From NCBI GenBank assembly GCA_003224085.1, contig QHYK01000103.1:1-33663 (forward strand): a DNA stretch of 33,663 nt, read 5' to 3'. Position numbers and translations under genes: made by a program. Under the pieces are notes generated by a model, which saw only the letters and a program-made list of their open reading frames with translations, was not told the origin of the DNA and made no database searches. Shown in pieces: positions 28,029-32,912 of this stretch. Numbering within the stretch: the first letter of the stretch is position 1; the number at the start of each line of letters is the position of its first letter. The stretch comes from Acidobacteriota bacterium (GTDB taxonomy: Bacteria; Acidobacteriota; Terriglobia; Acidiferrales; UBA7541).

Positions 28029-29024
28029 CTACAACCCTTTTGCCTCGCGGAAACTTCGCACCACAACGGCAGCGTCCTGGTGTTGTGCATCTACAGCGTA
28101 GTTGAGCTTCCGAATGTCGCTTGCGGAAAGCTTCCCGCCAAGATCGGCCAGGGCCGCGCGCAGTTGCGGGAACTGCTCGAGCGTCGATGCGCGCACGATG
28201 GGCACCGCGTCGTAAGGTGGGAAATAATGCTGGTCGTCCTCCAGCGCCACGAGCCCCAGCGCGTCAATCAGCCCATCGGTGGAATTCCCGGCCACCACAT
28301 CCACCTGATGGTCCAGCAGCGCGCGATAGATTAGCCCCAGGTCCATGACCTTGGGCGATTCCGCAAACTGCAGACGGTAGCGCTTGCTGAGCCCGGGAAA
28401 ACCGTCGGGCCGCTCCAGGAACTCGTACCCCACTCCCACCCGCCATTGCGGAGCGATAGAAGGCAAATCCGAGAGCGTGCGAATGTGCATCTTCTTCGCG
28501 TCGTCTCCGCGAATCACCATCGCGAACGTGTTCTCAAAGCCCAGCGGCTCGGTCACTTCCAGGTGAAATTTCTCCGCATATAGTTTCTTGACGCGCTCGT
28601 AGACGGCCGCGGAAGTTCCTTGCGGCGCCTCGTTGAGAACCGCCGTCAGCGCTGTGCCGGTATATTCAACGTACAAATCGAGGTCGCCGGAAAGCAGCGC
28701 TTTGTGCACCAATAGCGTACCGCCAAGGTTCGCCTTCCGAACTACCCTGATGCCCGCCTTCGCCTCGATGTGTTGCGCCACAAGCTCGGCCAGAACGACT
28801 TGCTCCGTAAAAAACTTCGACCCAATCGTGACTCTGTTTTGTGGCTTTTTCTTGCAGCTAGAAACGAAACAAACAACGCTAGTCAGGCAAACAAGATAAA
28901 GAATTAGAGAGACATGTATGGCACAAGGACGGCTGCCAGGTTTGCCATCCCGAGCGTAGCGAGGGATCTGCTTTTTGATTTCCAGGGAAGAAGAACGTGA
29001 GGCAAGAACGCGTCTGGTCTTCAC
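28029..29024 (-). CDS. ABC transporter substrate-binding lipoprotein, ProX/OpuCC/EgtU-like
   Basis: This 331-residue binding protein belongs to the quaternary-amine (OpuAC) family: VTIGSKFFTEQVVLAELVA, then NLGGTLLVHKALLSGDLDLY and VEYTGTAL. Later come STDGLIDALGLVALEDD and YFPPYDAVPIVR. A membrane segment (36-55) ends in a lipobox V54-S-S-C57. The GTG start overlaps the permease stop in GTGA and has GAGG upstream. Residues 14-31 are encoded by a dispersed-repeat-like sequence, and no later in-frame start exists. The family binds betaines, choline or, in EgtU, ergothioneine. Because egtB-like and egtD genes are divergent from this operon, ergothioneine is a candidate ligand. Confidence 0.88.
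   Translation of the reverse strand: MKTRRVLASRSSSLEIKKQIPRYARDGKPGSRPCAIHVSLILYLVCLTSVVCFVSSCKKKPQNRVTIGSKFFTEQVVLAELVAQHIEAKAGIRVVRKANLGGTLLVHKALLSGDLDLYVEYTGTALTAVLNEAPQGTSAAVYERVKKLYAEKFHLEVTEPLGFENTFAMVIRGDDAKKMHIRTLSDLPSIAPQWRVGVGYEFLERPDGFPGLSKRYRLQFAESPKVMDLGLIYRALLDHQVDVVAGNSTDGLIDALGLVALEDDQHYFPPYDAVPIVRASTLEQFPQLRAALADLGGKLSASDIRKLNYAVDAQHQDAAVVVRSFREAKGL
28941..28981. repeat. Repeat-like palindromic sequence inside the binding-protein gene
   Basis: The stretch containing TCCCGAGCGTAGCGAGGGA, followed by TCTGCTTTTT, resembles short dispersed elements that I recall from intergenic DNA of acidobacterial and other genomes. Here it is read in frame as KKQIPRYARDGKPG within the extra N-terminal region of the lipoprotein. 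It is a single copy in this window, so calling it a repeat rests on memory of the motif. Confidence 0.4.
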
Positions 29025-29665
29025 ACGACCCTCAATCGACGTTCGAGCATTCCCAGAAGAAAATCCGCGGCCAACGCCAACAGCGCCGCGGGAATTGCAC
29101 CGGCCAGAATGAGCGAATCACTCACCAGCGCAACGCCGCGAAAAATAAACGTGCCAAGTCCGCCAGCCCCGATGGCCGCCGCGATCGTAGCGATGCCGAT
29201 GGTGATGATGGTGGCCGTTCGAATGCCCGCAAGGATGACGGCAAGCGCGAGCGGGAACCGCACCCGAAACAGGATTTGCGCGCGCGTCATGCCCATGGCC
29301 TCTGCAGCTTCAAGGACGGCAGGATCGATCCCACGCAAACCTACGTATGTGTTTCGCAGAATCGGGAGAAGCGCATAGAGAACCAGCGCAACAATCGCCG
29401 TGCGTTTACCAATGCCGCCAATGAAGGGAATAGGGATTAGGAAACCGAAAAGCGCAAGGCTGGGAATGGTCTGAAAGATATTCGCGATGCCAATCGACAC
29501 CGCGCGCAGAGCCGGCCGCTGCACGATGAACATCCCCAGTGGAACGGCAATAAACATGGCGATCACCATGGAAATCAGGACAAGCTCGATATGATCGAGC
29601 GTAGCGCCAAGAATCTCCGCGCGATGTTCCGCGAAGAAGGACCACCCGCTCGAACCGGGGCTCAC
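29021..29665 (-). CDS. ABC transporter permease, quaternary-amine type
   Basis: This 214-residue permease has about five or six membrane segments and the binding-protein-dependent transport signature EAAEAMGMTRAQILFRVRFPLA, the EAA loop that touches the ATPase. The segments IANIFQTIPSLALFGFLIP and TIAAAIGAGGLGTFIFRG are characteristic of the OpuCB/ProW/YehW group. Its start overlaps the ATPase stop (ATGA) and its stop overlaps the next gene start (GTGA), so all three proteins are translationally coupled. Unlike EgtU of streptococci, the permease and binding protein are separate here. Confidence 0.92.
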   Translation of the reverse strand: MSPGSSGWSFFAEHRAEILGATLDHIELVLISMVIAMFIAVPLGMFIVQRPALRAVSIGIANIFQTIPSLALFGFLIPIPFIGGIGKRTAIVALVLYALLPILRNTYVGLRGIDPAVLEAAEAMGMTRAQILFRVRFPLALAVILAGIRTATIITIGIATIAAAIGAGGLGTFIFRGVALVSDSLILAGAIPAALLALAADFLLGMLERRLRVV

Positions 29666-30444
29666 GCCGGCGCTCCCGGATTTGTTTCCAGCGAAGCCGC
29701 GAACGCGCGCACTTCGGGATGTTCCAGCCTCAAAAATTCTTGAGGCGGCGCGACCGCCGCAATTCGTCCCGCTTCCAAGAGCACGATGCGCGACGCCAGC
29801 AGCAGCGCCTCGCGCAAGTCGTGCGTCACAAACACAATCGTCTTTTGCAGCCGTTGCGCCAGCGTTCGAAATTCCCGCTGCAATTCCGCACGGGTCACCG
29901 GATCCAAAGCGCCGAACGGCTCGTCCATCAGCAAAATTGGCGGATCGGCCGCCAGTGCGCGCGCCACACCCACCCGCTGCCGCTGCCCGCCCGAAAGTTC
30001 TCGCGGGCGCCGCCGTGCAAACTCACTCGGATCAAGCCCTACGAGACAAAGCAATTCGCCAACGCGCGCCGCCGTGCGGCAGCGATCCCATTTCTCCAGC
30101 GAAGGAACAAGCGCCACGTTTTCCTCCACCGTGAAATGTGGAAACAGCCCCGCTTCTTGAATCACATAACCGATTCCACGCCGCAGCCGAATAGGATCCC
30201 ACTCCGTAGTCACGCCACCCTGCACCAGCACTTGTCCCCGCGATGGAAGCAACATCCCGTTAATCAGGCGCAGCAGGGTAGTCTTGCCGCTGCCGCTCCG
30301 CCCAAGAAGCACCAGCGTTTCCCCGATTGGAACTGCCAGGGACACGCTGGAAATCACCTCGCGCCTCAGAATATCGTTTATGTGATACGACACATCGCGA
30401 AATTCAATCAAATTTCTCGAAAAATGTTCGGTCTTCGCATTCAT
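29662..30444 (-). CDS. ABC transporter ATP-binding protein, quaternary-amine type
   Basis: This 260-residue ATPase has Walker A GRSGSGKTT, the Q-loop YVIQEAGLFPHFTVEEN, the signature LSGGQRQR, Walker B ILLMDEPFGALDP and the switch His in VFVTHDL. Similarity is to OpuCA/ProV ATPases, but it lacks the C-terminal CBS domains that sense ionic strength in osmotic transporters. That absence weakens an osmoprotection role. It is the first gene of the operon. An ATG at 30442-30444 is used; a TTG six codons upstream is possible. The divergent egtB-like gene starts 115 bases away. Confidence 0.93.
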   Translation of the reverse strand: MNAKTEHFSRNLIEFRDVSYHINDILRREVISSVSLAVPIGETLVLLGRSGSGKTTLLRLINGMLLPSRGQVLVQGGVTTEWDPIRLRRGIGYVIQEAGLFPHFTVEENVALVPSLEKWDRCRTAARVGELLCLVGLDPSEFARRRPRELSGGQRQRVGVARALAADPPILLMDEPFGALDPVTRAELQREFRTLAQRLQKTIVFVTHDLREALLLASRIVLLEAGRIAAVAPPQEFLRLEHPEVRAFAASLETNPGAPA

Positions 30445-30559
30445 TTCGGTTGACAGCCTCAATTCCCAGCGCGAACATACTAATGTAATTTGCCTCCCGA
30501 CGCCGATTTTTGGCGCATCCTTCTCTGGGGCCTGGCATCAAACGGAAGGGGCCAACGCT

Positions 30560-31894
30560 ATGGGAGCACTTGCCGCCACTGCCGTCCGCATCCGGCACGA
30601 TCTTCATACCGGTTTACTGAAAGCCCGGGGGAGAACCGATGAGCTTTTGCAACTTGTCCGCGAAGAGGCCATGTATGACCGGCCCATCGCCGAGCGCCAT
30701 CGCATTATTTTTTACCTAGGCCACGTCGAAGCCTTCGATTGGAACCTGCTTTCGCAGCGCGCTTTCGGTCTCCGCTCTTTTCATCCGTCTTTCGATCAGC
30801 TTTTTTCGTTCGGGATCGATCCTGACGGCGGCAGCCTGCCTACCGACGCGCCGGGAGATTGGCCAACCCGCCAGGAAGTGGAACGTTACAAAACGCGCGT
30901 GCGCGAAGAACTCGATCACGCCATCGAACACGCACTTCAGCGCCCCGAAGAAGGCCACCCCCACTTGCTGCAAATGCTGCATGTGGCCATCGAGCATCGG
31001 CTGATGCACGCCGAGACCCTCACCTACATGCTGCACCGGCTTCCCGCGCACAAAAAGATTTGTCCCCCCCAGAAGGCCGCTTGGAAAGCCCCGCACGTGA
31101 AATCGCACCTGGTCGAAATCCCCGGCGGACGCGCCACGCTGGGAATTCGCAATTCCCAGGATCCTGAATTCGGCTGGGACAACGAGTTCGCCGAGCACGA
31201 AGTGGCCGTTCCGGAGTTCGCCATCGAGGGTCATAACGTAACAAACCACGATTTTTTGCGGTTTATTCAGGCTGGAGGCTACCAAAATCGCAAACTTTGG
31301 ACCCCCGAGGCCTGGGCCTGGAGAACCAAAGAGAATATTCAGCATCCAATGTTCTGGAGGGCTGACGGCAATCTCTGGCTGTATCGAACCATGTTCGGCG
31401 AAGTTCGTCTGCCCCTGGAATGGCCGGTGTACGTGAGCCACGCAGAAGCCACCGCCTACGCCAATTGGCTCGGGCGCAAGCTGCCGACCGAGGCGCAGTT
31501 TCATCGCGCGGCGTACGGCACGCCAAAGGGCGACCAGGAGCGCACCTATCCCTGGGGCGAAGAGCCACCTAGCGAGCGCCACGGAAATTTTGATTTTCGC
31601 TCCTGGGATCCTTCACCGGTCGGGGCGCATGCCGCCGGTGCGAGCGCGTTTGGCGTTTATGATCTTGTCGGAAACGGTTGGGAGTGGACTCGCACCGAGT
31701 TCGCGCCGTTTCCGGGATTCACGCCGATGCCTTTCTATCCGGGCTACTCGGCAAATTTCTTCGACGGCCGGCATTATGTGATGAAAGGCGGCTCCCCGCG
31801 CACCGCCGCGTGCATGCTGCGCCGTTCATTCCGCAACTGGTTCCAACCGCATTATCCGTATGTTTACGCAACCTTCCGTTGCGTCGAGGACTAA
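30560..31894 (+). CDS. egtB: EgtB-like sulfoxide synthase (DinB_2 plus FGE-sulfatase domains)
   Basis: This 444-residue nonheme-iron enzyme should couple hercynine to a thiol donor with O2 to form the sulfoxide precursor of ergothioneine. The N-terminal DinB-like domain gives three histidines: H55 in YLGHVEAFDWNLL, and H146 and H150 in AIEHRLMHAETL, in the spacing of the EgtB iron site. The FGE-sulfatase domain (about 175-444) includes GHNVTNHDFLRFI, RKLPTEAQFHRAAYG, YDLVGNGWEWT and MKGGSPRTAACMLRRSFRNW. No EgtC gene is nearby, which would fit a cysteine-using form, though other thiol donors are possible. AAGGGG lies ten bases before the ATG. egtD follows 49 bases later. Confidence 0.83.
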   Translation: MGALAATAVRIRHDLHTGLLKARGRTDELLQLVREEAMYDRPIAERHRIIFYLGHVEAFDWNLLSQRAFGLRSFHPSFDQLFSFGIDPDGGSLPTDAPGDWPTRQEVERYKTRVREELDHAIEHALQRPEEGHPHLLQMLHVAIEHRLMHAETLTYMLHRLPAHKKICPPQKAAWKAPHVKSHLVEIPGGRATLGIRNSQDPEFGWDNEFAEHEVAVPEFAIEGHNVTNHDFLRFIQAGGYQNRKLWTPEAWAWRTKENIQHPMFWRADGNLWLYRTMFGEVRLPLEWPVYVSHAEATAYANWLGRKLPTEAQFHRAAYGTPKGDQERTYPWGEEPPSERHGNFDFRSWDPSPVGAHAAGASAFGVYDLVGNGWEWTRTEFAPFPGFTPMPFYPGYSANFFDGRHYVMKGGSPRTAACMLRRSFRNWFQPHYPYVYATFRCVED

Positions 31895-31943
31895 AAGCAG
31901 ACCACCAGCTCAGCCCCAGCTCGGACAGCTCAGGAGAGAGACG

Positions 31944-32912
31944 ATGGCGACGCCTGCTTTAACGCTCCAGCACGTGTCGGAATTTGCGGCAGACGTGCGC
32001 GATAGCCTAACCAAATCCGGACAACGCGAACTGCCCTCGAAATATCTCTACGATGAAGTGGGTTCCGCGCTGTTTGAAGCCATCTGCGTGCTACCCGAAT
32101 ATGGACTAACGCGGGCTGATACTCGTCTGCTTCAAGAAAATGCCGCCGAAATCGTTTCGCGCGTTCCCTCGCCCGTGCGCGTTGCGGAGCTTGGCAGCGG
32201 TTCGGGGAAAAAGACGCGCTGGATTCTCGAAGCATTGTCGCGGCGGCAAATCACATATTACTACCCCATTGAAATTTCTCCCCATGCGCTGGCTGCGTGC
32301 GAAAAAGAATTGGCGCAGATTGATATGGTCAGCGTCGTCGGTCACGAAAAGCCGTATCTCGAGGGGCTACGCACGGTCGCGGACGGACGAAGCGAGCGCG
32401 ACCATCTTCTCGTCCTTTTTCTCGGCAGCACCATCGGCAATTTTGACCGCGATGCCGGCGACCGGTTCCTGCGCGAGATGCGTGAAATTCTTCGCCCCGG
32501 TGATGCTTTGCTCCTCGGAACGGACTTGGAGAAAGCCGTCGACCTGCAGCTTCTTGCTTACAACGATCCTGCAGGTGTCACCGCCGCTTTCAATTCGAAT
32601 GTGCTGGCGCGCTTGAATCGCGAGCTAGGCGCGGACTTCGACTTGAGCTGCTTCTGCCACGAGGCTCGTTGGAATTATTCCGACCGCCGCATCGAAATGC
32701 ATTTGCGCTCTACCCTTCGCCAGAGCGTTCGTATTCCCGCCGCCAGCCTGCGCATCGTGCTCGACGAAGACGAGACCATTTGGACCGAAAGCTCCCACAA
32801 ATACAAAGCCGAAGAGATTCCCGAGATGGCCGAGCGCACCGGCTTCCGCTGCGAAGCCCAGTGGATCGACTCCGAATGGCCCTTCGCCCAAAACCTGCTT
32901 ACCGCAGAATGA
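31944..32912 (+). CDS. egtD: L-histidine N-alpha-methyltransferase (EgtD)
   Basis: This 322-residue SAM-dependent enzyme trimethylates histidine to hercynine, the first step of ergothioneine synthesis. Family marks are KYLYDEVGSALFEAICVLPE with YGLTRAD directly after, the SAM loop ELGSGSGKKTR, YYYPIEISPHAL, LFLGSTIGNFDRD, and LLGTDLEKAVDLQLLAYNDP. Length matches known EgtD proteins. The ATG at 31944 has GGAGAGAG just upstream; an upstream in-frame start overlaps the egtB-like end and is not conserved. It forms an operon with that gene. EgtC and EgtE homologues are not in the window, so the last steps must be encoded elsewhere. Confidence 0.93.
   Translation: MATPALTLQHVSEFAADVRDSLTKSGQRELPSKYLYDEVGSALFEAICVLPEYGLTRADTRLLQENAAEIVSRVPSPVRVAELGSGSGKKTRWILEALSRRQITYYYPIEISPHALAACEKELAQIDMVSVVGHEKPYLEGLRTVADGRSERDHLLVLFLGSTIGNFDRDAGDRFLREMREILRPGDALLLGTDLEKAVDLQLLAYNDPAGVTAAFNSNVLARLNRELGADFDLSCFCHEARWNYSDRRIEMHLRSTLRQSVRIPAASLRIVLDEDETIWTESSHKYKAEEIPEMAERTGFRCEAQWIDSEWPFAQNLLTAE

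Follow-up and report, generated by a model that had tools for sequence, protein, structure and literature searches.

Contig QHYK01000103.1 of the Acidobacteriota assembly GCA_003224085.1 (33,663 nucleotides, hereafter the window) contains a three-gene operon divergent from an egtB-like gene and egtD, and comparison of its sequences indicated that the operon probably encodes a substrate-binding protein (SBP)-dependent (type I) ATP-binding cassette (ABC) importer for a histidine betaine, ergothioneine or hercynine, placed beside the genes for that compound's own synthesis. As the SBP was found to follow EgtD in two phyla, and repeatedly to adjoin egtD or an egtB-egtD pair, hercynine (the EgtD product) or ergothioneine would be the likeliest cargo. 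We infer the direction of transport (import) from the SBP architecture, and we infer too the ligand and the physiological role. The window is one contig of a 6.8 Mb genome that is 97% complete, and the features of the locus are as follows (ORF, open reading frame; pocket positions in the numbering of SpEgtU, the EgtU of Streptococcus pneumoniae, after PMC9732360).

28029..29024, minus strand: SBP of the OpuAC family, probable lipoprotein, with an A-type pocket (F at SpEgtU 341, N at 419); from ORF, Pfam, alignment and structure model
29021..29665, minus strand: ABC permease with a single BPD_transp_1 domain; from ORF, Pfam and NCBIfam
29662..30462, minus strand: ABC ATPase, ProV/OpuCA-like, no CBS domain found, TTG start with a possible ATG start at 30444; from ORF, Pfam and NCBIfam
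30463..30559, no strand: divergent intergenic stretch; TTGACA and paired GCATC repeats compared across loci
30560..31894, plus strand: EgtB-like non-haem iron sulfoxide synthase, nearest EgtB-IV/OvoA; from Pfam, NCBIfam and PDB
31944..32912, plus strand: EgtD, L-histidine N-alpha-methyltransferase, ORF open from 31860 with a better start at 31944; from Pfam and NCBIfam

The arrangement described in the initial annotation was confirmed: genes for an OpuAC-type SBP, a single permease and an ATPase run head to head with a pair formed by an EgtB-like gene and a clearly recognisable egtD. On the minus strand the ATPase, permease and SBP genes each overlap the next by a few bases, with the EgtB-like gene and egtD diverging from them on the plus strand, and the 115 bases given earlier between the transporter and the egtB-like gene are exact for the ATPase ATG at 30444 and become 97 for the TTG at 30462. 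Pfam matches were obtained for the SBP (OpuAC, E-value 5e-60), the permease (BPD_transp_1, 9e-20), the ATPase (ABC_tran, 7e-34), EgtD (Methyltransf_33, 2e-91) and the EgtB-like protein (FGE-sulfatase plus DinB_2). Compared with known EgtB-IV/OvoA/EgtB plus EgtD systems, the window EgtD exceeded the cut-off of NCBIfam TIGR03438 (295.6 vs 290.9), and the EgtB-like protein fell below the cut-offs of all three models, scoring highest on the OvoA N-terminal model (287.9/400), then EgtB (TIGR03440; 253.3/360) and SenA (243.8/420). The nearest PDB relative of this protein was EgtB-IV (residues 31-442 align with 8vih), and by homology it would work like EgtB-IV/OvoA.

Association of the transporter with egtD

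Within a sample of 297 Acidobacteriota genomes (completeness of at least 90% requested; any homologue at E 1e-15 or better counted as SBP), 89 carried both SBP and EgtD, 19 SBP only, 28 EgtD only and 161 neither (odds ratio 27); these counts, like all the co-occurrence counts given here, are not corrected for the species tree, with some contribution from genome size and lineage. EgtD was present in 67 of the 76 closest SBP carriers and in 22 of the other 32. When genomes were collapsed to families (about 76, an approximate total taken from group labels), 36 had both, 6 SBP only, 7 EgtD only and 27 neither (odds ratio 23, Fisher p 9e-9). Among 146 Cyanobacteria, where the SBP was called at E 1e-40 (33 of 36 carriers sharing 54% or more identity with the Microcystis query), EgtD was found in 36/36 carriers vs 27/110 non-carriers, and in 50 genomes chosen for a close SBP relative EgtD was above cut-off in 45 and detected at E 1e-10 in 47. 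Control BCCT betaine carriers gave no such link, with EgtD in only 2 of the 19 Acidobacteriota (of 297) that held them.

In the window's order, 69 of 95 genomes had an SBP match and 77 an EgtD match at E 1e-10. The 52 genomes passing a filter of at least 90% completeness and at most 5% contamination comprised 37 with both, none with SBP only, 6 with EgtD only and 9 with neither, G040 being scored EgtD-positive on a 41% identical match. Since two genomes of the window's genus have an EgtB homologue (66% at G033:C4:73171-74490 and 63% at G035:C1:74123-75436) with neither EgtD nor SBP, it is apparently EgtD, and not EgtB, that the transporter tracks; these homologues possibly reflect OvoA-type use of histidine. 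The same two genomes, having EgtB without EgtD and lacking the SBP, count against a different pathway compound as cargo (hercynylcysteine sulfoxide, selenoneine, a product of ergothioneine oxidation, thiohistidines of the ovothiol kind, or the precursor histidine), as does linkage to egtD even where egtB is not alongside (L185-L188, G005). Such a cargo would suit an EgtB-like enzyme that scores nearest OvoA/EgtB-IV and a pocket whose lost Y419 and Y341 hydroxyls alter the side that faces the thioimidazole in SpEgtU, and overall we judge it improbable.

Lack of a conserved neighbourhood, which the initial annotation had offered as a ground for abandoning its proposal, was not found, as the arrangement is conserved. 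Among 28 same-genus loci inspected (filler L051 excluded), the ATPase was head to head with EgtB in 23 by our own count, and the five exceptions were explained by contig ends (L049 and L098), showed another arrangement (L085) or were unlinked (L086 and L090). Genera g10, g12 and g13 contributed nine further head-to-head loci, with an SBP that is 55-61% identical; the egt genes of L059 look broken. In G005, a member of a different family, it is EgtD that faces the ATPase head to head, EgtB being on a separate contig, and in G027, from the window's genus, a different EgtD-EgtB pair (EgtD 60% identical) lies tail to tail beyond the SBP, on the operon's other side. Genomes of genera g2, g7 and g11 that hold both SBP and EgtD never have both on one contig, and within g11 both genes are missing from G076 and G078.

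SBP and EgtD genes lay within 6 kb of each other in 13 of the 89 Acidobacteriota with both (0.21 expected, 5 Mb genomes assumed), spread by our own tally over nine families (f1, f4, f13, f20, f23, f27, f45, f65 and f73), and in 6 of the 36 cyanobacterial carriers (0.08 expected). Linked loci showed different gene orders:

L185-L188: egtD, ATPase and fused permease/SBP in one direction
L191, L193-L195: ATPase, fused SBP, egtB, egtD
L190: ATPase, permease, SBP, egtB, egtD
L192: egtD, ATPase and fused gene, with egtB on the other strand
L189 and the window: egtB-egtD divergent from the ATPase
L196: tail to tail
L163, L173 (named records): co-directional ATPase, permease, SBP, egtB, egtD
L169 Trichormus, L183 Anabaena (Nostocales): egtD-egtB on the opposite strand
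L177 (record titled Deltaproteobacteria): egtD divergent from the ATPase

By estimate, the distance from the EgtD frame to the ATPase start behind it is about 45-50 bases in L186-L188 and about 115 bases in L185. Linkage state changed at least 12 times on a 153-row FastTree and at least 8 times on a 50-row maximum-likelihood (ML) tree, gains and losses counted together. Neighbour clusters, judged by eye with overlapping-frame artefacts included, had EgtD as the commonest (49 of 176 loci, many of one genus) once transporter-gene clusters, one of them merged with EgtB, were set aside; the remaining clusters looked lineage-specific. Some record titles may be mislabelled, L109 being titled Betaproteobacteria and giving the same match as G038:C7 of the window's genus, and this perhaps applies to L177 also.

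The kept neighbourhood and the co-occurrence with EgtD in two phyla bear out the tie to the ergothioneine pathway proposed in the initial annotation. We regard as very improbable that there is no functional link, with the neighbourhood held by descent and the co-occurrence produced by lineage and genome size. One arrangement was inherited by most same-genus loci, and A-type relatives are more often unlinked than linked, but pure descent is strained by the adjacency and co-occurrence counts: adjacency recurs in nine Acidobacteriota families in different orders, in Cyanobacteria and in the Deltaproteobacteria-titled record, the family-level Fisher test gave the low p value above, and SBP and EgtD are jointly absent from G076 and G078 in a genus whose genomes never showed the genes on a single contig.

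The SBP fold and pocket

The AlphaFold2 model of the SBP (predicted local distance difference test score, pLDDT, 93; 38 sequences) showed the OpuAC fold of a type II SBP, with Z scores, which depend on the open or closed state, running from 35.4 (3o66) down to 29.7 and including Archaeoglobus fulgidus ProX (AfProX; 3mam, 34.8), Lmo1422 (4z7e, 34.6), Helicobacter pylori EgtU (8dp6, 34.1) and SpEgtU (7txl, 31.2). As the model matches choline/betaine, EgtU and ProX binders alike, fold alone names no ligand. The SBP is 38% identical to AfProX, sharing family and fold with it and with B. subtilis OpuBC/OpuCC and OsmF/YehZ (127/400 on the NCBIfam model of OsmF), and is 35% identical to the H. pylori EgtU (8dp6/8dp7), again with the same fold.

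The pocket of the window SBP reads K242, F243, F244, G274, T275, Y293, T296, F337, N339, F341, E375, R379, N419 and Y443. Passages of PMC9732360 describe K242, T296 and R379 of SpEgtU as holding the carboxylate and E375 the imidazole, the hydroxyls at 341 and 419 as touching the water network round the thione, and G244 and F293 as EgtU specificity determinants. Like SpEgtUBC of S. pneumoniae and BilEB of L. monocytogenes (PMC9732360), the window transporter has an OpuAC-type SBP of the same fold that keeps K242, T296, E375 and R379, together with N339 and Y443. The kept K242, T296, R379 and E375 would fit a betaine carboxylate and an imidazole, by the SpEgtU contacts. It differs from EgtU at the signature positions (G244 to F, F293 to Y and Y337 to F) and at the two positions of the cage and water network (Y341 to F and Y419 to N), and the four-tyrosine cage described for AfProX-type glycine betaine binders in the same source is reduced to Y, F, N, Y. 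The lost hydroxyls at 341 and 419 suggest, by analogy with SpEgtU, a different binding mode or a preference shifted to hercynine or a larger derivative.

These pocket letters are widely shared. With A-type defined by the letters at 341 and 419 (Phe 341 with Asn in 135, Ser in 6 or Asp in 8), 149 of the 168 loci left after removal of recognised duplicates were A-type, including most Cyanobacteria; K242, T296 and R379 were present in 149/149 of them, and position 375 was E in 142 and D in 7. The 32 A-type rows of the 50-row ML tree (a quick search with no bootstrap, with L104 and L224 dropped after a first tree had flagged them and EcOsmF as long branches) formed one clade with a Shimodaira-Hasegawa-like approximate likelihood ratio test (SH-aLRT) value of 97, apart from SpEgtU/BilEB. 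L142 fell inside the A clade on the 153-row tree, yet has Tyr 341 and so lies outside the letter-based set. Membership of EgtU itself, to which the initial annotation had likened the transporter, has therefore to be given up, the SBP lying outside the EgtU clade and lacking the EgtU signature residues. Grouping with osmolyte binders, the contrary outcome that the annotation had foreseen, was not clearly seen either: the SBP fell in its own clade, in a tree whose osmolyte representatives were E. coli OsmF and an engineered sensor, without the PDB ProX/OpuC-type glycine betaine binders, and since E. coli OsmF served as the outgroup the distance between SBP and OsmF was assumed rather than tested.

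A second SBP group, ProX-like and with the full tyrosine cage, includes the egtB/egtD-linked loci L191-L196, and linkage in this separate group may mean that the association has originated repeatedly. The L191 protein is about equally far from four references, given nearly equal bit scores against wild-type SpEgtU (114.8), Lmo1422 (116.7), AfProX (113.5) and H. pylori EgtU (110.4).

The foremost alternative, which we consider unlikely, is a general betaine or quaternary-amine importer (glycine betaine, proline betaine) serving methyl-group supply or osmoprotection, its link with EgtD being metabolic, through the supply of S-adenosylmethionine, or ecological. Family names and the nearest natural and engineered PDB relatives, which are choline/betaine binders, speak for it; the kept carboxylate residues would also suit a simple betaine, and the window SBP is the sole OpuAC (PF04069) match in its genome. 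It fits less well with the loss of two of the four cage tyrosines, with BCCT carriers that do not track EgtD and with the recurrent direct adjacency to egtD/egtB, and no methionine-cycle neighbour was noticed in a by-eye reading of the neighbour clusters, no systematic search having been made.

Several observations also weigh against import of ergothioneine or hercynine. Why a producer should import what it makes is not obvious, and the SBP binding site, as read from the alignment, does not match that of the known ergothioneine pump: G244 and F293 are absent in 149/149 A-type loci, in which Y341 is F and Y419 is N, S or D. Absence of these two residues need not exclude ergothioneine, since PMC9732360 credits the H. 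pylori transporter, which falls outside the sub-cluster of SpEgtU, with a lower-affinity contribution to ergothioneine uptake and states that G244 and the Tyr-Phe switch are not conserved in sub-clusters other than that of SpEgtU. Where the flank sufficed, most A-type relatives did not lie beside egt genes (67 unlinked vs 43 linked, with 39 undecided); L218 of G213 was scored linked, here and for the linkage states on the 153-row tree, on a weak 69-bit EgtD match where the genome table shows no EgtD. An SBP homologue without EgtD occurs in 19/297 Acidobacteriota, including 7 of the 8 carriers in family f26, and in four genomes of the order that are 55-82% complete (G003, G073, G081 and G087, with no EgtD match). 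Four of the seven EgtD-less f26 carriers have an A-type SBP with Asp 419 (L197-L200; the other Asp 419 loci are L162, L205, L209 and L210), hinting at a changed ligand. Part of the co-occurrence may reflect genome size and lineage, and both genes are missing from those listed Cyanobacteria of 2.2 Mb or less that appear in both tables.

A candidate importer in ergothioneine producers

For the proposed import of a histidine betaine, the SBP would bind the ligand in its cleft, the loaded SBP would dock on a permease homodimer, and the ATPase would drive uptake, so that a producing cell might recapture compound leaked to the periplasm or scavenge it from soil and mats. EgtU is described in organisms unable to make ergothioneine, whereas the window transporter sits in producers by gene content. 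The existence of an OpuAC-type ergothioneine importer in non-producers is known. We put forward tentatively, at a little short of even confidence and on comparative grounds, a second kind of ergothioneine/hercynine importer across Acidobacteriota and Cyanobacteria, with a pocket lacking two cage tyrosines, that would form a salvage loop in producers.

In the literature covered, bacterial ergothioneine importers described so far serve non-producers scavenging from a host, as stated for H. pylori EgtU in a review among PMC12689799, PMC12918743 and PMC10295655. The terms egtB, egtD and Acidobacter did not occur in the main text of the EgtU paper (PMC9732360), and among the matches listed from open-licence literature, by titles and abstract starts, none described a transporter-egt linkage or a producer-linked group with its own pocket. 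If a dedicated importer does follow egtD in soil and water producers, ergothioneine would become a metabolite shared within the community, and many proteins of Acidobacteriota and Cyanobacteria now annotated with 'glycine betaine' would be misannotated. The alternative pocket might also offer a handle on yield and leakage in ergothioneine production.

The layout that the initial annotation had set apart from EgtU proved only partly distinctive. Separate permease and SBP genes in the window do differ from EgtU, in which the permease is fused to the SBP, but fusion in the EgtU order, permease first and SBP second, also occurs in some of this SBP's A-type relatives, and the layout is therefore no deep difference. 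Fused ORFs were counted as 29 permease-first vs 12 SBP-first, the reverse of EgtU (L191, L193-L195, L201, L202, L215-L217, L219, L220 and L222). A fused permease-SBP with an A-type pocket was also seen on plasmid pSYLB of Synechocystis PCC 6714 (L099), where the annotation of the 11 kb inspected shows neither an ATPase nor an egt gene, the plasmid's gene table being incomplete.

Osmolyte importers of the OpuC/ProX kind differ in their ATPase, OpuCA carrying CBS domains. The window ATPase had no Pfam match to a CBS domain, as the initial annotation had said, although this alone is not diagnostic. CBS absence as proof of function was rejected: the ATPases of two EgtU-like plasmid loci likewise have no CBS domain, but this names no ligand.

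Intergenic stretch and further observations

Two GCATC repeats 20 bases apart lie upstream of egtB (window 30500-30550), and the pair was found in 19/21 same-genus loci and in 2/8 measured loci of other genera. TTGACA was present in 17/21 same-genus loci and in 0/8 measured loci outside the genus, and the gap was estimated at 96-99 bases in 15 of the 21 same-genus loci measured. A simple scan of the intergenic stretch for a sigma-70 promoter gave no match, and a shared riboswitch there was rejected, with no Rfam match up to E 1.

A search of the window genome for BCCT gave no match at E 1e-20. EgtE matches there were all below cut-off, and this search was uninformative because 14/14 control genomes likewise gave sub-cut-off matches only.

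The repeat CATCCCGAGCGTAGCGAGGGATCT was found at 28946-28969, inside the 5' part of the SBP ORF, and has 9 copies in the genome at up to 2 mismatches, the window copy included. As it falls inside, it probably lengthens the SBP reading frame artificially, the first part of the ORF probably not being native; a lipobox-like VSSC, read by eye, ends at residue 57.

In Rhizobium leguminosarum (L102:5539-8810), hutC and a gene for a histidine ammonia-lyase, which might be an ergothionase-like enzyme, precede a related SBP (about 42% identical). The final 48 codons of the window egtD were found again, 100% identical, on a second contig (G000:C33:159293-159436), perhaps as a contig-end overlap.

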